From Chytridium lagenaria (taxonomy: Eukaryota; Chytridiomycota; Chytridiomycetes; Chytridiales; Chytridiaceae): a stretch of DNA of 64,000 nucleotides. Below are positions 36,682-51,472 of the stretch, piece after piece. The notes under the pieces were generated by a model. That model saw only the letters and a program-made list of their open reading frames with translations, ran no database searches and was not told where the DNA came from. The stretch lies in the NCBI GenBank assembly GCA_025449115.1, contig JAHLKC010000008.1, positions 372,001 through 436,000 of the forward strand, written 5' to 3'. Positions within the stretch are counted from its first letter, which is position 1. Every line of letters starts with the position of its first letter. Made by a program: the position numbers and the translations under genes.

Positions 36682-39600
36682 ATGTTGCTGAAAACAAATG
36701 ATGGGACGACGGCGGTGCAAGATCATGTCTCTGATGAGATGTGGTTTTCAAAGAGCTTGATGAACCCTACCACATTGTATTTTCCTCCGGCGATGGTAAG
36801 GAAATAAGAGGATTTATGTAGCTCATAGAAGCCTCTTTTCTCATTATTCTATTCTCCCTATACAGGAAAGAGTGTTCATTCTTGAGGTAAGACGTTTCCA
36901 ACTACTGACAAAGTCTTACCCCTCTTTCCCAGCACATCGGATCCGATGAATCCAGAAGAAACATGCGTGTTAATGCTAGTATTGCATTTATATTTTACAT
37001 ATTTGCCGAACTTTTCGGTCTCTACAGCTGGATTACTGGAGACCGCAGTGCTGTGCATACCCTATCAATGATCTTAGAGTTTGTCGCTTTCATTATCTGT
37101 GAAATTCTCGCACTGTGGGTTGTCATCTTCCCAACGCGAACTCAAGAACAATGGAGACAGTGGCATGAAGGGAATGGGTCTATTCATTTCAGACGGCCGC
37201 AAGTTTGCATTATGGCCATATCAGCGTTGTTCTTATTGAGGTTGGGGTTTGAGGTTGCTTCTTTCTTTTTTTTTTAAATCCTTTTGCCGTAGGTCCGAGA
37301 ACATTTTGTATCCAAAGGACTTTGCGGCTTGGCAGGTTTCCACCGCAGGGTTTGTTTTTATTATATTTGCTGCAGCTATTGGGTTGTCGTTTAAGGTACT
37401 TTTGAAAATTTAATGTTGGTGCTGATATTGGATAGTATTATCCGAGCAGTGTTTTTACCTTGGTTCTATTCTGTGTGGTTGTTGTGAGAGGGATCATTGT
37501 TGGAGCTTTGGATAGGAATCGCGATTCACCGGTGCGCTTGTTGGTGTTTTTGACGCCAGCATTGATATCATTATGTAAGTCTACGTTGCCTGCTTGCTTT
37601 ATCTTTTGGCCATGCTGGATAGGAATTATACTAAATTGGGGGCCTTGTATTATAGTGGTGAACGGTTGGGCTATGTTTGTGATAGAAACAAACTTTAGGA
37701 CAAAGTATCTTACCAAAAAGAGATTGGAGATTGAAATGCGAAGACTAAAGGACAGGCGTGTCAGTGTCGACTCTATCCTTCAAGTGGTACTTCCAAAGGT
37801 GAAGTTTCGGTCTCCATGCTGTTTCCACCTTCTTATCTCTCCAGTAGGATGTTATAATGCGACTTCAGGAATCGGATTTTCAGTTTTCCGCCGTCACAGA
37901 TCGCTTTGAGACGGCTTTTTGCGTGTTTGTGGATTTTTATAGCTCGAAAGAGGAGTTGGATAAGATCAGCCCAGAGAACATGTTGAGGTTGATTAATCTC
38001 ACGTTTCGCGACTTTGATATATTGTTGGATAAATTTCAGGATGTGGAAAAAATCAAGGTTTGGCTCTTTCTTTGCCGATAAGCAAAAGGCTGAAATCGGA
38101 TTTTGTTTTTTTTAGACTATATCGAGCAAAGCGTTGCTTGTAGCGAAACCGGTTGGAATGGATGCCATTATAATCAATGGGGATGCTATCACGAGACTAT
38201 GTATTGAAACTTTGGAACGCATGAGGGCGCCGGTGCAAATTGAGTTTGATGATGATGGCTATGGTAATGATGTGCAGAAGGTCGGCGATGGATGTGCTTC
38301 GGTCGCTGGAGAATATAAGGTTACGACCATTTCCAGGAATGTTACGATCGGAATTGCGTTTGGGGAGGTTGTAGCAGGTACGTGTATTATGATAAGTTTT
38401 GATTTTTTTACGAACGTACGTTTAAGGCATTGTTGGAGTTGACCGATTCGTGTATGACATATATGGCGATGTTGTGAATACTGGTAGGATATAAAGGACA
38501 TGGTCGAGTTTCCCCCCTAATTTATCTGTCAGCGAGTCGTATGCAAACGTTGAACGACCCAAAGTCGCATTCTGTGATGTGCACTGCAGCAGCTTTTTGC
38601 TCAGTTTAGCCCCGAAACTCGTAAGCCCCTTAAGTCTGCATATAATTTGATACATATTTAAGGCCAACATTGGTACAGCACTGGCATGGTATCCGTGAAA
38701 GGGAAGGGAATCATGGAAGTCTATCGTCTCCAAGAAGCTCCTATAAATACCTCACCACTTTTACACTTCCCCGCACTTGATGTGATCGGAGCCGCGGCAC
38801 CTCTACTTTCTGTTCTTGATTCACAAAAAAAGGAAAGGATTTCATTTCGTGGGAATCTTCCTGGTGTTGGAGAAGACGCCGTTAGAGCCATTCTCAACAC
38901 TTTCCATGGGCATGGTAACCTCTCTACTGTTTTTGATAAATCAAAGACCTGTGCGATGGCTGAGCGTCAGTTGGGGTTCGGGTCTGCTCTTGGAAGCTGT
39001 GAAAGGATCGATAAGGATTGTATGTTTTTATCTAAAACAAAGTCCGAGTTCAAGGCTAGAGAGAATGATCACTTTTCAGATATTTTTGTCAGTGAATACG
39101 GGTCGGGGGACATTAAAATCGATTTTTTCAAGACGCCCGACATCGTATGATACCACGTTCTCTGAGGCTACACATAAGGCTGTTAAAAGCAAGCGAGCAC
39201 AGAATGGGTCCTATGGTTACAAAGGGGATCCAGTCCTCACCGTCGACGAGCGATTATCTATGGCACGATCATTCGAGAAACTGGCTAGTGTCAAGAATTC
39301 CTTATTGAGCTTGGCGACACCAGAGATTCCAATGCATTTGGGTACGGCTGGACTTGAGGTCAGGGCATCGGTGTCAACTTTTGAACACCCATTTTATGAT
39401 GAGAGGGATCTTCCGCTTCCACCCAACATTGAGGTGAGCGAGCCCTTATCTCCTGCGGTGGATCTTCGACGAAAATCTATAGCAATACGTGAGCTACGGG
39501 ATTCAACGTCATTAAAGTGGCTCCATGAGGCCTCGAAAGCAAGCTTGGGGAAAGTTTCGGTCGGGGATGAGAAGAGGAGAAGAGGGGTTGTTGAGGGAGC

Positions 39601-41661
39601 TGATATGTTTTCTAATTCTTGGATTCCTCTTTACGTTCTGGATCATTGGCAACATATTGGGAAGTGGTCTCTTTTATTCCTTGATTCGGATATGAGGGAA
39701 AAATACCGTCTGTTTGTGAGGAGTGATGGCGGTGCTTACCTCAAAGCGTTGTTCAGAGAAGGAGCATCAGCTGCAATTATATCAAGTGGGATTATTACTA
39801 TTGCCATATTGCATACACTTTTTGCCGACGACGCAGGGAGAATGCCATCATCAGTACGATTGGAATACATTGCGAAAAATACTGTGTTGCGCCAATATAG
39901 TCCCTGGATTGGAATTTACAGCGCTGTAGGCTTTTTCACGGCTCAAATGTTTGTCTGTTGGTTGCAGCATTTTTTGTGTCGGAGGCGTCTCGACAGAATC
40001 ATCAGAAGAGTCGCTGATGAAACTCATACAGCTGTAGATACGGCGGCTTTAGGATCTTGGGGAGCTTATTGGCTGAAAATTATCACAACGGCAGGAGTGA
40101 TTATAAGCATTCAACTGACCACCTTTGGCCATGTTTGGTTGTTCCCTCAAGCAGGGATGCAGCTTTTTCTTGCGTTTGTGGCGAACCTTGAACATCAATA
40201 CCTTGATTCGGATATGCCCTTTCATTATTTCATGGTGGCGATTGTGGTGATGACTGTAGTGCCGATGACAACTTTATTTTTTCTCAAGGTTGCTGGAATG
40301 GTGGATCTTATTGAGACATTTGCGCTCACAGCTATAGTACTTTCTGGAAAATACAGACATTCATTAGCGAAGAAGACGAGCTTCTTGTTTCAGCTTACTC
40401 TTGTAACGAGTAGGGAGTTGCAGGATCTGGAATCTGCATTCTTCTTTGAGCTTTTGGGCGCAATATTACCGCATAGGGTCATTGAAAGCATGTTTAGTGA
40501 CACCAGGAACGAAAGCACGCTGGAACGATTCAAAGGTGAATTAATCGTCTTATTCCTTTAGTAATCAATGTTGCGTTTGACCTCCTAATATGCTTGCTAA
40601 CAATGTAGAACAGGGGTCAGCGTGATCCATTTAGACATCACCTCATTTACCGTCTTATCTGGTTTTTTACGGCCTCATGATGTTATCAAAATTCTTGTAG
40701 GGCTCTCGTTCATTATGCCTTTGGAACTCACACACGCATAGAATACACTCTTTACAAAGTTTGACCGAATCTGCTACGAGCACCAAGTTGAAAAAATTCT
40801 CACGATTGGTGACGCGTACGTAGCCATGCGAGCTCCGGAAAGCTCCAACCCCAAGGCGTTGGAACATAAAAACAATTTCAGAGCAGAGTACATGCACAAG
40901 CAGAAATTAAAACAAGACGCCGAGGCTATTGATGGTTTTGATGTCAAGGTGAACGAGAGACCGAGAGCCTCTTGCCATGTTAACCGTTCAATCATGGACA
41001 TGAGCTTTGCAAAGATGACCGATTCTGTTTTAAAAACGACGGAGCAATTGGAATCCATACCTGCTGGCGGGTCTGAGTTCCAGGATTACCATTCCGAGGC
41101 TGCGGTTGATGCGTGTCATGCTGCGTTGGAAATGCTAGAAGCAGTGGAGAATTTGGCGTCGTCTTGGTCCGAATCTCATGCTGATCCGTCTGGAAAGCGA
41201 GAGGAGGTGAATTTTCAAGGAAGAGCAAATTTAGCAAAGCTCCGCGTGAGAATTGGTATTCACACGGGACCTGCATATGGATGCTTGACAGGTATATTTA
41301 CACAGTTTCTGTTCAACACAGTGTCGTTTTTTGCGTTGTCGGCAACTTATGGTAGTAACCAAGTATTATAGGAGGAAGGAGTAAAATTAAATATGAACTT
41401 GTTGGCGAGGCAATGGAGATAGCTGAACTTATGGAACAGCAAGCTACACCCGGTACGGTCCGCGTTTCACGAGCAACTATGAATTTGATTGTGAAAAAAC
41501 GCGGGCCATTGAGAACCACTCTACCATCGAACAAATATGATGAGGAACCACCGCATGAGGAGGGAGCAGAAATTGAGTGTCCATCAGGTCAGGGACTTTC
41601 GTTTATTGCAAGAGTGAGTGTAGGATCTGGGGTAAGCTATGAGCTGCGGAGAGATCGGTAG
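36682..41661 (+). CDS. Membrane class III adenylyl cyclase, two cyclase domains, copy A
   Basis: Predicted to make cAMP at the plasma membrane. The start ATG at 36682 begins MLLKTNDGTTAV, followed by the conserved cytosolic block DEMWFSKSLMNPTTLYFP. About six TM helices follow (36965-37690), then a charged helix (LEIEMRRLKDRR). Cyclase domain 1 (about 37860-38740) has FVDF, VEKIKTISSKALL, YDIYGDVVN and ASRMQTL: it keeps the C2-type Lys, Asp, Asn and Arg, but the second metal Asp is replaced (SSK for GDA). A linker with GEDAVRAIL and HIGKWSLLF leads to a second six-helix block (about 39720-40370). Domain 2 (about 40600-41640) has HLDITSF and VEKILTIGDAYVAM, with both metal Asp, then LRVRIGIHTGPAYG and KYELVGEAMEIAE. 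Breaks at TTTTT 38594-38598 and TTTTTT 39123-39128 look like indels. The product is roughly 1,300-1,400 residues by my estimate. Confidence 0.85.
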
Positions 41662-41924
41662 GGCTTAAAGCGCCTAGTGTATCCGAGTCACAACTTAGGA
41701 CCGAATAGCCCATGAATAAAAGCAAACCTACAGTTTGACCAACAGTATGGTTGGCAAATTGGCTAGTAAAATAATAGGGTAGATGGAGATTTACCGTTTC
41801 AGCGTGTTAGAGCTGGAGTTCAGTCGCGATTAATTATTAGAAAATCCGGATTGCCACTAGTCCATGGATCGCCGCCAATGTCTTGGAAGTTGGAACGTTC
41901 CCTGCTACATGTCAGGGAAAGCGA

Positions 41925-44900
41925 ATGTATAAGCAGGACGATGGCGAAAGCCATGAGGCTGTTTCTGACGAGCAATGGTTCTCCAATGACATTATCGACA
42001 AGCACACTCTGTATTTTCCCTATGATATGGAGAAGGTGTATACAATGGAGGTAGGCAACTTATGAATTTAAGCTGACTTTAAAGAATATAGGCTCCGATG
42101 TAGCCAGAGTAAACCTCAGAAACATTCTCTATATAGGCCTCTGCTATTATATTATTGCAGAAATTTGGACTATTGCTGCCTTTATCATTCTTCGAACATC
42201 AGCACTTTCGTTTATTCTCCAAGGATGTCTGTTTATTGTTGGACAGATTATTGGTTTCGTTGACATAGGCTGGTTGACAAAAAAGGAACAGTGGAAAAGA
42301 CTGCACACCGCGAGAATGGCTCGATATATCGCCATGCCCCAAGCGTTGGGATATTTGACACTGTGCGTTTACATTTTAAGGTACTTTAACATACTCATCG
42401 ATTCCTAAGGAAAAATATCACAGGACCGAGAATTTTACCTATCCCTTTGACTTTTTCCAATGGCAGATCTCGCCGATAGGATTTATCTACGTTCTGTCGT
42501 CAGTTATCATAGGAATATGTGTCAAAGTTCTTTACTTCATAGGTCTTCTACTAATAAGCATAGTTTCTCCCCGCATTGATTGTGACGGCCATCTTCTTTC
42601 TTTTTATAATTCTTCGTGCAGTCATATTGGGTGCTCTGGATACCTGCAAAGATGCCTGGGTGCGCGCCATTGGATACCTTCTTCCAGGCGCGATCGCATT
42701 TTGTAAGCTTTAAACATCTAAAAAGGTAACCTAATTACCCAAGTCGTGAACCATTGGGCCATGTATATCTTGGAGCAAAGGCTACGGATAAACTTTATCA
42801 CAAAGAAGAGATTAGAAATTGAGACGAGGCGATTGCAAGAACGCCAGAAAAGTGTTGAGGCTATTTTAGAGCTTGTTTTACCAAAGGTTTAGTTTGTTGA
42901 TTTAGCTCTTAAGTTAATGTAATTCAGGATGTTATCACGAGGATGCAGATACAAAACTATTCGTTCTCCATTGTTGATCGCTTTGAGTCTGCGTTCTGCG
43001 TATTTGTCGACTTTTTTAGCGCTCAAAAGCTCGATTTGATAGAGCCCTATGCTTGCATCAAAGCGTTGAATGCCACTTTTATGAGTCTTGATCTTCTCCT
43101 TCAAGAATATCCCACGATTGAAAAGATAAAGGTGATAAATATATCTTTTGTATTGTTTGCATCCACTAAACATTCTAATTCTGTCTTTACGTTGAAGACT
43201 ATATCGAGCAAAGGTCTTCTAATAAGTACACCATCTGGACCTGATGAGATGATAGTGTACTCGGACGCTGTTACGTCTTTCTGCTTTGAACTTTTTCGTA
43301 AACTTAACGGAGACAGCTTCAATGAATTACCGGAACTATTGAAAAGATCAGTTACTATAGGAGTCGCCTTTGGAGAAATCGTTGCAGGTTGGTGTCCACC
43401 GCACATGATTATTTTTAATACGATACAACAGGATTAGTTGGGGAGAGGCGATTTTGTTACGATGTCTATGGAGACATTGTAAACACAGGTGAATAGCTTT
43501 GAGAAAAGTAGTCCCCGCTTTCTGACGTACATCGCGTATATGCAGCCAGTCGAATGCAGACCTTGGGTTTACTTCATCCGATTCTTTGTACCGAGGATAC
43601 CTTTTCACAATTTTCGTCTACAACACGTAAGATTATTAGCAACAACATACTATTTGGGCATCTGACGCCATCTTTAGAAATGAAGTGGAGGAGCTGTGGC
43701 ATCCACTCAGTAAAAGGCAAAGGAGACATGCTCATATATCGAGCTGCTTCCGAAGCTGACGATAAAAAAGAGGCTACTGGCAACTTAGCAGACTCTTTGA
43801 GTAGACTCGGAGTAGATTCTAGGTCAAAGGAGGATAGGAAGCCAAGCTATATTGACGTCGGAGATGACGCGATACGGTCAATTCTGATTTCTTTCAAAAA
43901 GCAACACGAACCTATATCTCCCGTTTCGCCTTCCGAAAGGCACGCCAACTTAGGTAACATCAAAGCGATACCTAGTCAAGATCGAGCACAAAGACTGGTT
44001 GAGCGACGAGTGACGTTACAGAAGCTCCAAAAATTAAGTGTGTCGGGAAACGACACATCTTTTCCCGACACATCTAAACTGCAACCGTTTTCGCTCACAG
44101 ACATTGGCAGAAACCAAAAGACCTTGAAAATGCGTGAGGTGGAAAATCCAAAGAAGCGGTCGATACCTATTCTTGATTATTTCATTGAGTATTCGAATCA
44201 CTGGAATCATATTGATCGTTTTTCGCTCAAGTTCTTTGAATTAAAAAACCGAGAAGAATATCGAAATGGGGTTCGGCAGAATGTAAAATCGACTACGGAC
44301 TGTTTTTCAAGAAGGCTGTTGCGCAACTGTGATATCTGTCAGCTGCATTTTAATGGCAACTATTTACGCCATCTTCATAGACCCTGATCGCGTGTCCACC
44401 AAGATCACAGCTCGGGAAGATATCTTCTCAAAAAAGGGACGATTTCCGGACCACCCTTGGATTGGTATCGCTGTGTTGCATGCGGCGGGTTTATTCTGCT
44501 ATTATCGGCATCCGTCTTTCACTTTTTCCAACTAAGAAGATCGCTGCAAATCAATGAAGACAAAAACGGCGTAAAGGGATCTACTTTTCGGTATACGCTT
44601 GCTATGTATTGTTTGAAGATTCTATCCGCCTACACTACGATACTTGGCGTGCAGATCACAGCTTATGGGCAGACTTACCTCTCCGCTCAAGGGTTGACGT
44701 GCCTGTTCCTGTCCTATGCTGCAGGACTGGATTACGATGATATTGAGCCTGAGCTTTCGTTTACTGTTGTAGCCATGTTTCTCAGCATACTCACTCTAGG
44801 CACAAACGCGTTGTGGGTTTATGCACGAGTCGCTGCTTTGACGGACCTGCTTCAAATTTTCAGTCTTTTAACGATCGTGTTGGTGGGAAAATACCGATAT

Positions 44901-46179
44901 GCTGTAGCGAAACGAATGAACTTGCTCTTAAATCTTAAATTAAAAGCGAGTCAAGAACTACAGGATATTGAATCAGCTTTCTTTTTCGAGCTTTTGGAGG
45001 CTATTCTTCCTTCCAGACTCACGCAGAATATGCTAGAGAATCCTATTTCATTTGGAAGGCTGTATTTGGAGCTCTTCGAGAGTAAGCTTCATCCGTTGTT
45101 GTTCTTGCATTTTCCTTTGTTTGTTACCTTTATTTTGTTACATTTGTTAAATCTAACTGTGTATTCAAGCTGTTACTGTAATTCACTTGGACATAACATC
45201 GTTCACCGTAATGTCCAGCAACATGCCGCCATCCGACCTTGTAGACCTTTTGGTAAGCTCTACGTATTATATATATTCCTTCTTCTAGCACTCGAACTAA
45301 TCAGATTTTTACATAGAATATGCTGTTCACACGGTTTGATAAAATATGTCAAGGCCACAACGTGGAAAAAATACTTACCATCGGTGACGCTTACGTTGCT
45401 ATGCGCATGCCCAAATCTTTTAAAGGATCAAGGACACGCCATCTTGAGGGTCATCAAAAAATTCACCCTTCCCAAGGGCCAACCTCTGCTGGAGAACATC
45501 TCCACTACACGTCACAAAACGCCTCTGATGGTCCGAACCAAAGAAGCGAGAACCCGGGCGGAAATTCTACAGAGACAGTGAAGTGGGACGAGAATGCTGA
45601 AGCTGCTATGGAGGCTTGCATTGCTGCTGTTGAGATGCAGGAGGCTCTTAAATCTATGATCATGACATGGTCTGAGGAGAGACCAGAAAGCGGGATCAAC
45701 TCTGACCAAATAGGTAAACTTCGCGCTAGGATTGGTATACACACGGGACCTGCCTTTGGATGCTTAACAGGTGAAGTTTCGAGATACTCGCGTTTAAGTT
45801 AACACTGTGTAGGTGGAGCTACAAAGATAAAGTACGAGCTTATGGGAGAGGCTATGGAAGTTTCTGAGCAGATTGAACGGATGGCAGAACCAGGAACAGT
45901 TCGATCATCCCTATCGACCATGTACCATGTTTTTCAAGGAATGGGACTTTTTTTGAATGAAATCATGGGATGGGAATGTCTACAAGCATCTACATCATTC
46001 AAGGACGGCCAGGAGCTCATTTCTCAAAGGGAATTTCTTTCATCGCCCGACGCCCAAAAGGTCATCTTTCCACAGATAAACCTTGTTCTGTTCAAACTCA
46101 TCCAGAGCCCAATACGGCAGTAATGGGTGCTGGCACCCATACATTATTCCTGTCCTTTGAAATAAAGAAGACGAAATGA
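41925..46179 (+). CDS. Membrane class III adenylyl cyclase, two cyclase domains, copy B
   Basis: Paralog of copy A, starting 263 bp after its stop. The start ATG at 41925 gives MYKQDDGESHEAV, then DEQWFSNDIIDKHTLYFP. The first membrane block is at about 42090-42760, ending VVNHWAMYILE and KKRLEIETRRLQERQ. Cyclase domain 1 (42940-43760) has FCVFVDFFSA, IEKIK with TISSKGLL, VTIGVAFGEIVAG, YDVYGDIVN and ASRMQTLG. The linker has GDDAIRSILISF and HWNHIDRFSLKFF. The second membrane block is at about 44310-44930. Domain 2 (45170-46179) has HLDITSFTVM, FDKICQGHNVEKILTIGDAY, LRARIGIHTGPAFG and KYELMGEAMEVSEQ. The C-terminus GISFIARR to SFEIKKTK matches the other copies in a shifted frame, so the end is taken at 46179. 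The residue pattern is as in copy A: C2-type residues first, both metal Asp second. Breaks occur near 44285-44300 and 44470. Confidence 0.83.
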
Positions 46180-46301
46180 GGTTATGATCAACCAGGATTG
46201 GTTTTCAAAGGGTTTACCATCTCGGAAATCTTCAAGATCACCAGTGCCTCTGAAGAAAGTTGTAGGTTGATGCGCCTTGGGTACTCGGCAAACTGTAACA
46301 G

Positions 46302-49300
46302 ATGTACCGACCCCATGTTTCTTTACGAAAAATGAGTGAGGAAGTCGGCGACCTGCATGATAAAATATCCGAGGAGCTGTGGTTCTCGGATGATATTATT
46401 GATAGACATACCCTATACTTCCCAGCTACTATGGAAAGAATCTTTACGAGAGAGGTATGGTGGTCGCTTACTGTGGCCAAAGTTGACGGTGTCTAGCATA
46501 TTGGGTCAGAGGATTCGCAGCTTATATTGAGGAATGTCTTGTGTGTTGGGTTGGTTTATTATGCCATATCAGAAGCAGTGTCCACGACAACGTTTTTAAG
46601 GGAGAAGAATACCAGTAACAGTATACCATCATATGTTCTGCAAGCGTTTATCTTCATCGTCACTGAAGTCGTGGGGTTCTGGAACCTCAAGCACTGTATC
46701 TTAAATTCCGAACGGTGGCGGCGGTTGCATTTAAGGGAAAGCGCGAATTATGTTCCTGTACCTCAGGGGATTGCTTATCTAAATCTCTTTGTCTATGCCT
46801 TTCGGTAAGAGCGGGAGTATTTTTTTCTGCGACTGATAGATGCGAAAGGAACGAGAATTATTGCTATATGGAGGAGTTTATGACGTGGCAGGTGGGGATT
46901 TTTTTCGCACGGGGAGTTAGGCTGATCATGAATTCGCTAGGTCTCCTCCATAGGATTTATTTATGTTCTTTCAGCCGCGATCATGGGACTTGCTTTCAAG
47001 GTGACTATATCACTTTCCTAGCTTCTTTAACAATAAAAAGTTCCTCCCCGCCGTCTTCATGTCCGCCGCTATCTTCTCCATGGTGGCATGGAGATGCGTC
47101 GTTCTTTTTGCCGCAGAAGCTAGTCCTGATTATTGGGTTCGATCGTTGAGCTTTATCATGCCCGCGTTTGTGGCATTCAGTATGAGAGTTCTTGCTTTTC
47201 TTCTGTTAACTTTTACCTAAGTTGTGAACCATTGGGCAATGTATGTGATCGAATATAGTTTTCGGAAACGCTTTATCACGAAAAAGAGACTCGAAATTGA
47301 AATGCGGAGACTGCAGGAGCGACATAAGGGGGTGGAAGGGATTTTAGAGTTGATTCTACCGACGGTATGCAATAATCTTAAGCTGGTTTTTTGCTTTGAT
47401 GAAATATGAGATAAGGCTTAACGGCATACATTTGGTTTTAATAGGATGTCATTGGAAGACTTCAAGCCTCCAATTACAACTTCTCAGCTGTTGTCGACCG
47501 GTTCGAGACAGCCTTCTCTATCTTCATCGAATTCATCTCTAAAAAGGAGTTAGATTCGATGAAGCCCGAAGAAGCACTTCGGTGTTTGAACGTGTTTTTC
47601 AAGGGACTTGATTCCATATTGCAAGATTTTCCTGAAGTAGAAAAGATCAAGGTATTTTTTACTGGAGGAGGGCTTATTTTAATGAAGCAATTTTGTTAGA
47701 CTATATCGAGTAAAGCGTTGCTGATTAGTTGCCCAAAAGGGGATGAAGAGGTCAAGAGACATGGGGATGCGATTACAAAGCTATGTTTTGAAGGCGATTG
47801 AGAGGTCGTTGCAGATGAGGAGGAATATCTCGGTGGGGATAGCTTTTGGCGAGATTGTTGCAGGTATGGATCTAGCGCGTGGTTTCATGATACTTGTGAT
47901 GTTTTCTTAAAAAATTTATCGTCTCATGATTTTTTACAGGAATTGTTGGAGTCCAACGCTTCTGTTACGATGTGTACGGCGATGTTGTAAAATACTTGTT
48001 AGTACCGGTTTTGGGGTTTTTTGAAACTATTTTGCTTTCGTATAAACTTACAATTCCATGTACAGCGAGTCGAATGCAAACATTAGGGATTCGACAATTT
48101 GCTCTCTGCACGGGCGAAGCATACCGTCAATTTTCCAAAGATACTCGTAAGCATATTCCTTAGCCTTAAAACCTAAGAAACTCTGCTAGAAACCCAGTGG
48201 AGAAGCGCCGGTGTCCACTTCGTCAAAGGCAAAGGCATGATGGAAGTCTACAGCGTCTCTAGTCCAAACAACCGCCGCAACACTGGTATCGATCTCTCCT
48301 CCTCTGCTGAAACCATGCGCAGTCTCCCCTCATTTCTAGATCTGGAAACGAATGGGGCTCTTGAACCCTTTGACAGGCCTATTGAAAATGAAGGCATGTT
48401 TGCGCTGAACGGGTCTCTCCCCATTACAAGCACGACGGATATTGATGTAGGGGATGCGGCTGTGCGTGCAGTGTTGACGGCGTTTAATCCTGCCAATGGG
48501 GTGTTTGGGAGTCGACGGAACAGGATTACGCCTGTATCTGATACGATATCTGCGACGAATTTATCAAAGGCGTCAGTGTCGTTGACGGATTTTTTGGAGG
48601 TGTTTGATACAACGAAACCGGTGACAAAGGCATTTAGCCAGAAAAGGGAGAAGGAGAAATCGGTCTCGTCCATGACGATTGAGGCGGATAAGACCGTGTG
48701 GCCTAGAAGAACGTCGATGACACCGCCCGGATGGCATAGGAGGACGTCGATGAACCCGACTTGGTTTAAAGTTCCTGGATTTGGGATTGTGAAAGATGTG
48801 AAGAAACGGAAGGAGGGGGAGAAGAACGCATCTTATGCTGTGATGATGGCTGAGCCCACCATGACCAAGGCGGCGGGGTTTGAGACGCTCATTGAAGAGT
48901 TTTCGGACCCATGGAAGCATATAGGGTGGCTTTCGTTGGTGTTTACAGATCCGGATATTTGGAAACGGTATCGTCGATATCTTCGGAAAGACGAGGAACA
49001 TCGATTGAGAACGTTGTTGTTGGAGGGGTGTCAGCGACGCTTATTTCATCCATAACTATTATAGTGGCGTCTCTGTATCTGCGTTATGTGAATCACGATC
49101 GACCTTCCGATCTTATCAAAGCCCGCACTGGTAAAGTTGCAAGACAAGGATTGTTTGAATCATCGTCTACGGTGGGGATGTGGGTGTCGATATCGTTTTT
49201 TTTCGTGCAGATGGTGATATCGTGGCTGCATTATGGTATCATCCGTCACGCCGTGTCCTTGCATCGACACAAAGGAAAGTCACACCATTAGGAAAACGCA

Positions 49301-51472
49301 AATACATCACAGGCACGAAATTCTTGAACGGATGGGCCTTGCATTTCATTAAAATCGTTACAGCTTTGGGCGTTCAGATCGGAGTGCAGGTCACTCCTTA
49401 CGGCCAAATCTGGTTATCCCAACAAGCCGTTGTATGCCTCTTTCTCTCCTATGCTGCCAACATTGAGTATGATTTTTTGGAACCCGGGATGCCGTTTTAT
49501 GCTGTGGCTGCCACGATTGTTGTTTTGACAATGATACCAAACATAGCGTTTTTTATGTGTGGGATGTCGACGATTCAGGATATGATGAGGATTGTGTGGA
49601 TGATTACTATTGTGTTGGGGGGAAGTATCGACATGCGCTTGCGAGACGGGGGAATTTTTTGTTGCATATTACGTTGATGAAGAGCAGGGAGTTGCAGGAT
49701 TTGGAGTCAGAGTTTATCTTTCAGTTGCTTGGTGCGATTTTGCCGGCGAGAGCGATTGATTATATGTTGATCAATTCGGAATCCGGCGGGGAAGTCGTAT
49801 TTGGAGAGTTTTGAATGTGAGTGTTTTTTTTTTTTTTTTTTTTAAAAAAAATATCATGTTATGATTTCTCTTTTGTCAAGCGGTGAGGTGGAACAGCCTT
49901 GGATATAATTGTTGTTTTGTTCACTAATGTTTGTATTTTTTTTAGGCGTCACTGTTATTCATATGGACGTCACTTCATTCACGGTGCTTTCAAGTATGAT
50001 GCGACCAGAGGACGTGATCGCTCTTTTGGTCGGTTCATGTTCTAATTATTTTATTTATTTTTGTTTTTTTGTGTTTTGCTTGCATGTAACTTACCTATGT
50101 GCACATATAGAATATTCTCTTTACTCAATTTGACGAGATCTGCAACTCTCACGACGTCGAAAAGATTCTCACCATCGGTGACGCCTACGTTGCCATGCGT
50201 ATCCCGCAATCCAACACTATCAAAATGTCCGAAACCATCCCTGGAACGCGCAACTTACATCCCATAAAATCCATGATACTTCCAACAAAACGCCGAATCA
50301 CCTTTCCACAGACCTTTTTAATCTAAAACCCACCTTCACAGCCGCGTTGGATGAAGCGACAAAGTTTGAGACATGCCCGCCTGAGTATCATCGACGGGAG
50401 AACCTGTTGAATATACCAAAGATGCCGTGGAGTGGGACGACGGGAACGGGGGGGAGACGAAAATCAGCGTCTGATATCATGGTTCCCACAGCACAGAAGA
50501 CGGGACATGAAGAAGGAGGGGAATCGAGCGCACAATCCAGCGACGAGGATTCAGATGGGAAAGTGAATCGAAGGACAAGTTTAGGGCTGGGTAGTAGTAA
50601 AACCCACGTCGAGTTCGCGAGTGTTTCCAACGTCTCAAGGAGGAGAGGCATTGGGCAAGTCTGTGCGTGCTCCTGCGATGGCTGGGAAAGGGGATGTGAG
50701 GATTGGACCGGATTGTGGAAGCTGCTGGGGAGGCTTGTAGAGCTGCGCTGGAGATGCAAGAGGCTGTCAGGAATCTTGTGATGAGTTGGAGGATTTAGGA
50801 GCGAGAGGAAGAGTGGATTTTCCTTTTGTAGCGCAGTTGGCGGGACGGGAAGATGGGAAGGAGGCGTTGGATTTGTTGATGAAGTTGAAGGTGAGGATTG
50901 GGGTGCATTCCGGAACGGCGTTTGGATGTTTGACTGGTGAGTTGTTTTTCTTCTTTGACTTAATTTCGTTTTTACTTTCGTTGAATTCAACAATAAGACT
51001 TTCTAACGAGACGTTTATTTTTTCGGCATTTTTCTTTTCTCAAAGGCGGTACCACAAAAATCAAGTATGAGGTTGTAGGTGAAGCCATGGACGTTGCTGA
51101 GACCATGGAGCAAAGAGCGACACCAGGAACGTGCGAGTGTCACGCACAACCATGAACTTGATTGTGCAAAGACCGCGGTCCACCCCATCTCAACATATTC
51201 TCCACTGACAATGCGCCATTAGGTGATCCTATGGAAGACGAAGATGGTACGTTACAGAGGCGCCACCTGAGCAAGGGCTCGCGTTTGTGACGAGACGGAG
51301 TAGTGATGGTTGGGTGTCTTTTGAGTTGAGAACGAGGAGGGAGGAGACGGCAAAGCGTCAACCAACCTCGGAAGTGGTAGGGCGATCCGAGAGTATATAT
51401 AGGAAAGAAAGAGACGCTGTACGCGAGGGCAAAGTGATGATGCAGAGGGTGTGTTTCGAGGACCCCAATTGA
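46302..51472 (+). CDS. Membrane class III adenylyl cyclase, two cyclase domains, copy C
   Basis: Third paralog, starting 122 bp after copy B. The start ATG at 46302 gives MYRPHVSLRKMSEE, then ISEELWFSDDIIDRHTLYFP. The first membrane block is at about 46520-47240, ending VVNHWAMYVIE and KKRLEIEMRRLQERH. Cyclase domain 1 (47450-48260) has FSIFIEF (first metal Asp is Glu), VEKIK with TISSKALL, YDVYGDVV and SRMQTLGI. The linker has GDAAVRAVLTAF and WKHIGWLSLVF. The second membrane block is at about 49010-49680. Domain 2 (49940-51310) has HMDVTSFTVLSSMM, FDEICNSHDVEKILTIGDAYVAM, LKVRIGVHSGTAFG and KYEVVGEAMDVAE, and a C-terminal GLAFVTRR and WVSFELRTRR. It ends CFEDPN at 51470-51472. Frame breaks near 47801, 47990, 49040 and 51130 are single-base and leave the conserved sequence readable in the next frame. 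Confidence 0.82.

Follow-up and report, generated by a model that had tools for sequence, protein, structure and literature searches.

The window analysed here, a stretch of 64,000 nucleotides forming part of contig C8 in the 41.9 Mb genome of Chytridium lagenaria (Chytridiales, Chytridiaceae), carries on its plus strand, between positions 36682 and ∼51469, three head-to-tail cyclase paralogues, each consisting of a block of six transmembrane helices (6TM), a cyclase domain, a linker, a second 6TM block and a second cyclase domain. Based on the residues and the domain order described below, these genes are likely to be tandemly duplicated members of a chytrid family of class III adenylyl cyclases (ACs) with twelve transmembrane (TM) helices and inverted catalytic halves, which would make cyclic AMP (cAMP) from ATP. 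An earlier note, made from the DNA letters alone, had proposed three tandem two-domain membrane cyclases in a zoosporic fungus; the host is indeed such a fungus, and the array itself is confirmed by spliced gene models, by alignments with P0001, a protein of Phlyctochytrium planicorne, by common introns and by hydropathy.

Gene models, membrane blocks and frame breaks

Exons were first read by hand from the DNA and then modelled with our own C program, which performs a spliced protein-to-DNA alignment with GT/GC-AG introns and permits frame breaks. Gene 1 (36682–41661, including the stop codon) comprises 15 exons encoding ∼1401 amino acids, with one frame break. Gene 2 (41925–46179) has the same layout in 13 exons, and its 3′ end is uncertain, the modelled end being at ∼46120 and the frame staying open to 46179. 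Gene 3, again with this layout, extends from 46302 or 46332 to 51472 (modelled end 51469) in ∼18 exons with several frame breaks; its final third, in which two introns have GC donors, is poorly modelled. Because the gene borders lie at 41661/41925 and 46179/46302, the intergenic gaps of 263 and 122 bp given in the earlier note were reproduced. With P0001 as query, the alignment scores were 2788, 1946 and 2410 on genes 1, 2 and 3, whereas the minus strand of gene 1 scored 76. Each of the 12 introns in gene 2 has a counterpart in genes 1 and 3 at the identical aligned place and in the same phase, as expected for tandem duplicates, and the identity to gene 1 amounts to 38% for gene 2 and 40% for gene 3. 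In gene 1, Pfam detects PF00211 in three stretches (E 7.8e-49).

The membrane blocks were assessed by hydropathy and structure models. The gene models start ∼50–60 residues upstream of the first hydrophobic segment, and in gene 1 the first membrane block, together with the helix leading into domain 1, is located at 36933–37798 (modelled exons, hydropathy). The second block and its signalling helix (39686–40466; structure model, fold match) lie within a single exon (39179–40535), for which the structure model predicts six helices; the equivalent region of gene 2 spans 44200–45080 (exon model, hydropathy). Hydrophobic windows of 19 residues number 66, 80 and 45 in genes 1, 2 and 3, of which 63, 80 and 45 fall inside the two membrane blocks, while 300 shuffled whole proteins gave means of 16, 15 and 12 and maxima of 57, 52 and 56, respectively, so that the gene 3 total does not exceed its shuffle maximum. 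A TM count at a hydropathy threshold of 1.4 was dropped, shuffled gene 1 averaging 6.85 TM-like segments, and was superseded by the hydropathy block profile and the structure models. The model of a related protein from Phlyctochytrium bullatum (P0002) shows six helices for block 1 but five for block 2, part of which is missing from its gene model, and superposes over its whole length on mammalian AC9/AC8 at ∼15% identity. Helical blocks between the cyclase domains are thus indicated by hydropathy in genes 1–3 and by the models of gene 1 block 2 and P0002, and the two repeats of 6TM plus cyclase domain correspond to the plan of animal transmembrane adenylyl cyclases (tmACs; AC1–AC9), in which a class III domain follows each of two six-TM blocks.

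The presence of frame breaks in all three genes raises the question of whether the cluster is a decayed remnant of a past expansion from which no protein is made, an explanation that we regard as rather unlikely. Hand-read protein queries gave one break in gene 1 and eight (six in another run) in gene 3; gene 2 has two breaks, both within its second membrane block, and probably a third near its 3′ end. When P0001 served as query, 2, 3 and 10 breaks were counted in genes 1, 2 and 3. In line with decay, no second allele was found in the genome with a 694-base probe taken from gene 2 only. However, five of the six HSP70 copies in the assembly, used as a control, are broken as well: the query copy, a cytosolic HSP70 on contig C29, is open, and the others contain 4 and 13 (66% and 64% identity to the query), 3 (38%), 1 and 2 breaks, although some of these may themselves be decaying. 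The conserved single-copy orthologue on contig C9, also a cyclase, is likewise broken within conserved stretches, which argues for indel errors in the assembly. Since the HSP70 copies and the C9 cyclase are affected too, frame breaks alone are not proof of pseudogenes, and the 12 common introns and intact catalytic residues additionally speak against decay of the array; gene 3 may nevertheless be decayed. The two HSP70 genes with 4 and 13 breaks (L027 and L029) are neighbours on contig C12 and otherwise conserved, so that their breaks could stem either from assembly quality that varies between regions or from decay of the tandem copies.

Reversed order of the catalytic halves

Class III dimers divide their catalytic residues: two metal-binding aspartates come from one half, and the base-selecting pair together with a transition-state asparagine and arginine from the other (as outlined in the relevant part of PMC6592433). 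In genes 1–3, domain 1 (37848–38740, 42928–43740 and 47445–48260, respectively) contains the Lys, Asp, Asn and Arg of the base half and has Ser rather than Asp at the second metal position; in gene 3, the first metal position is additionally occupied by Glu. Conversely, domain 2 (40614–41658, 45170–46120 and 49946–51469) has both metal Asp, Leu at the position of the base-selecting Lys, and neither Asn nor Arg. Taken across its two domains, each gene therefore encodes the full complement of residues for metal binding, base selection and the transition state. Animal tmACs show the same distribution of Lys/Asp/Asn/Arg and the two metal Asp over two halves, but there the metal half (C1) comes first and the base half (C2) second, an order that is absent from genes 1–3 and their relatives. 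The latter instead place the base half first and the metal half second, and their domain 2 contains long inserts not seen in the animal enzymes. The earlier note had compared the layout to that of animals and some protists; for animals, this holds for the 6TM–cyclase–6TM–cyclase plan and fails for the order, as the catalytic halves are swapped by both residues and profiles.

The same arrangement was observed in a set of 25 chytrid database proteins (see below). Both metal Asp are present in domain 2 of 25/25, and domain 1 has Lys in 24/25, Asn in 24/25 and Arg in 23/25, while its second metal position holds a non-Asp residue in 23/25 (P0146 having a gap and P0148 Asp); the exceptions (P0121, P0145, P0146 and P0148) coincide with gaps or breaks in the gene models. 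When scored against profiles of animal C1 and C2, domain 1 was closer to C2 in 28 of 29 cases and domain 2 closer to C1 in 29 of 29, and this preference persisted with six diagnostic columns masked. Similarly, the PDB stretches that score best come from the C2 domain of AC9/AC5 for gene 2 domain 1 and from the C1 domain of AC8/AC9 for gene 2 domain 2.

An inverted half order is known from the guanylyl cyclases (GCs) of Paramecium, Tetrahymena and Plasmodium. It has also been described, together with a 12-TM cyclase module, for the Toxoplasma enzyme (ATPaseP-GC; part of PMC6592433), and four protist-like database proteins (P0014, P0015, P0018 and P0026) share this order, their base position being occupied by Glu. 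Considering this order, and the use of rhodopsin guanylyl cyclases in the photoorientation of chytrid zoospores (as stated in published abstracts), the window genes could be GCs of the alveolate kind making cyclic GMP. We consider this improbable, since the base position is Lys rather than Glu in 3/3 window genes and in 24/25 relatives (the P0121 model is broken there), and since the second base position in the window subfamily is Asp, compared to the Glu/Cys or Glu/Ala pairs of alveolate GCs. Moreover, the P4-ATPase-like half of these enzymes is missing, the N-terminal part being short and PF00211 being the sole Pfam domain of gene 1, and the chytrid proteins are encoded by fungi. The base pair is of the adenylyl type, Lys/Asp in the window subfamily (hereafter type A) and Lys/Glu in a second subfamily (type B; Glu in 22/22), and for the Lys/Asp pair ATP is predicted as substrate.

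Spread and phylogeny of the inverted cyclases

Three protein database searches, in which candidates needed shared 5-residue words and the best ∼8000 were scored, yielded 25 inverted two-domain proteins from chytrids (23 species or isolates), including C. lagenaria itself (P0005) and the genera Rhizoclosmatium, Chytriomyces, Spizellomyces, Powellomyces, Gaertneriomyces, Rhizophlyctis, Nowakowskiella and Blyttiomyces. In all 25, the order of the domains was followed to the extent permitted by the gene models, and the membrane blocks were inspected in four by hydropathy and in one by a structure model. In the database, these proteins are named hypothetical, adenylate cyclase or otherwise (wrongly). 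The layout had initially been proposed to be lineage-specific, which is contradicted by these 25 proteins (e.g. from Spizellomyces, Powellomyces and Nowakowskiella), as they have the same domains in the same order. Only the subfamily of the triple array looks restricted, type A being so far confined to Chytridium and Phlyctochytrium. The C. lagenaria genome contains three further genes of this kind, two of type A on contigs C59 and C39 (domain 1 of the latter being partly readable) and one of type B on contig C9, which as read from the DNA matches P0005 by eye. In Gaertneriomyces proteins from two species (P0143 and P0144), the type B cyclase model continues into RasGEF-type domains (SH3, DUF7783, RasGEF_N and RasGEF in P0143), representing either a true fusion or read-through of conserved neighbours, and this would tie the cyclase to Ras.

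For the phylogenetic analysis, 80 of 99 aligned domains were used; six broken or partial domain 1s (L017, P0005, P0121, P0130, P0146 and P0148) and 13 near-copies or surplus rows were left out, and domain 2 of L020 had been lost earlier as too short. In the resulting tree, whose bootstrap had not settled, the chytrid domain 1s are all united in a single clade (100/98), and the domain 2s in a second (100/97). For both halves, gene 1 clusters with P0002 of P. bullatum (97/87 and 99/89), and because of this grouping the duplication behind genes 1–3 is probably older than the split between Chytridium and Phlyctochytrium. The tree places domain 1 with animal C2 at 88/54, and in approximately unbiased (AU) tests none of five alternative groupings, including domain 1 with domain 2, was rejected (p 0.17–0.45). 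Two database cyclases with two domains in the normal animal order and Lys in both halves (P0007 and P0012) were also encountered, whose domain 1s cluster weakly with chytrid domain 2 (79/83).

A membrane module common to chytrid and animal cyclases is hinted at by the motif LxF....LExxY, at least one copy of which occurs in 27/28 chytrid and 7/8 animal proteins, and which precedes both membrane blocks in 11/28 and 5/8, respectively; this pattern was picked after inspection and matches 0.17 times per shuffled protein. The segment is possibly a shared helix coupling both blocks. In a profile–profile run with whole chytrid and animal alignments, the last cyclase domains alone were aligned and the membrane blocks remained unaligned.

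That the window genes are ordinary animal-type tmACs with the normal C1/C2 order, derived from the opisthokont ancestor or acquired by transfer, is very unlikely: despite the common 2 × (6TM + cyclase) plan and fold, animal AC3 following next after the chytrid matches in the third search, and the LxF....LExxY segment found in both groups, this explanation is contradicted by the reversed half order, and recent transfer is unlikely because the chytrid domains form their own clades.

A candidate second cAMP system in chytrids

Fungal cAMP signalling is usually taught from Cyr1, an enzyme with a single cyclase domain and no TM blocks. Synthesis of cAMP is expected for both Cyr1 and the window genes, as judged from sequence, but the latter differ from it by their two cyclase domains and TM blocks, and gene 1 has neither leucine-rich repeats nor a PP2C domain in Pfam. 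The distinction from Cyr1 drawn in the earlier note is borne out by these features and by a separate Cyr1-type gene on contig C7, with PP2C and cyclase domains according to Pfam and leucine-rich repeats recognized by eye. PF08509, the Cyr1 mark, gave no match in the C. lagenaria genome, a result that is uninformative as control matches were obtained in 0/14 genomes. Because the genome also carries this Cyr1-type gene, the 12-TM cyclases are predicted to supplement Cyr1 as an additional cAMP system rather than to replace it.

Further cyclases in the genome comprise coiled-coil cyclases in two tandem arrays, rhodopsin cyclases and cyclases with FHA or GAF domains, and G-alpha matches above the cut-off are present on five contigs. 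The two arrays lie on contig C19 at ∼5–14 kb (L012/L013) and ∼103–112 kb (L014/L015), with approximately three genes each as counted by PF00211 places; in the parts read, their products look coiled-coil, contain a single cyclase domain and show no membrane block, and the later array keeps guanylyl-type motifs. A head-to-head rhodopsin-cyclase-like pair is formed by L010 (contig C20) and L009 (contig C246), with Bac_rhodopsin scores of 33.7 and 22.7 bits (cut-off 24.6), where C246 resembles a second haplotype of C20; C82 (25.0 bits) carries an additional rhodopsin-cyclase-like locus, and C258 another that was recognized by eye only. L011 (contig C44), which has an FHA domain, and L018 (contig C292) are near-identical cyclase loci by eye, C292 probably being the other haplotype of the C44 locus with a more broken frame.

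Among systems described elsewhere, Dictyostelium ACA and GCA resemble the chytrid proteins in having 12 TM helices and two cyclase domains (part of PMC11988041), a comparison made by description only. Unequal halves with the same division of labour, one contributing the base residues while its partner contributes the metal Asp and lacks Asn/Arg, have been reported for the chytrid rhodopsin-guanylyl cyclase heterodimer RGC1/NeoR, in which a change from Glu/Cys to Lys/Asp in RGC1 switches the enzyme to ATP (part of PMC12264004). Unlike RGC1 and NeoR, two separate GTP-specific proteins that bear rhodopsin domains, the 12-TM enzymes unite both halves in one chain. In agreement with the earlier note, no description of such enzymes in fungi was met in the open-licence literature searched, mostly at abstract level; likewise, the main text of a review on the conservation of eukaryotic membrane ACs (PMC9552081) does not contain the words fungi, fungal or yeast. 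The inverted order and the 12-TM layout are each known, whereas their joint occurrence with ATP-type residues in a fungus appears to be new.

These features suggest a model in which the two 6TM blocks would anchor the protein in the membrane, each connected by its signalling helix to a cyclase domain in the cytosol. Within one chain, these two domains would pair head to tail to form one active and one degenerate site, with domain 1 supplying the base-selecting Lys/Asp and the transition-state Asn/Arg and domain 2 the two metal-binding Asp, and cAMP would be produced from ATP. Control might be exerted at the degenerate site, the divergent membrane blocks and the N-terminal part, possibly by membrane-borne or G-protein signals, and the enzymes may be used in the zoospore or another wall-less stage, the zoospore role suggested in the earlier note being a guess.

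More tentatively, chytrids may have kept or made a 12-TM AC class in which an ancient doubled 6TM–cyclase unit split its catalytic labour opposite to animals. The animal order would then be one of two opisthokont solutions, and in Chytridiaceae the family would have been enlarged to a tandem array, the diverged membrane domains of which could serve as receptors for different cues. The swapped halves would provide a natural test of which tmAC half needs which residues, and of the role of the membrane domains, which is directly testable as chytrids are culturable and some of them transformable. If true, many chytrids would possess a second cyclase system that spans the membrane and unites the animal fold with swapped halves and ATP-type residues, which would shift the boundary between animal and fungal cAMP signalling.

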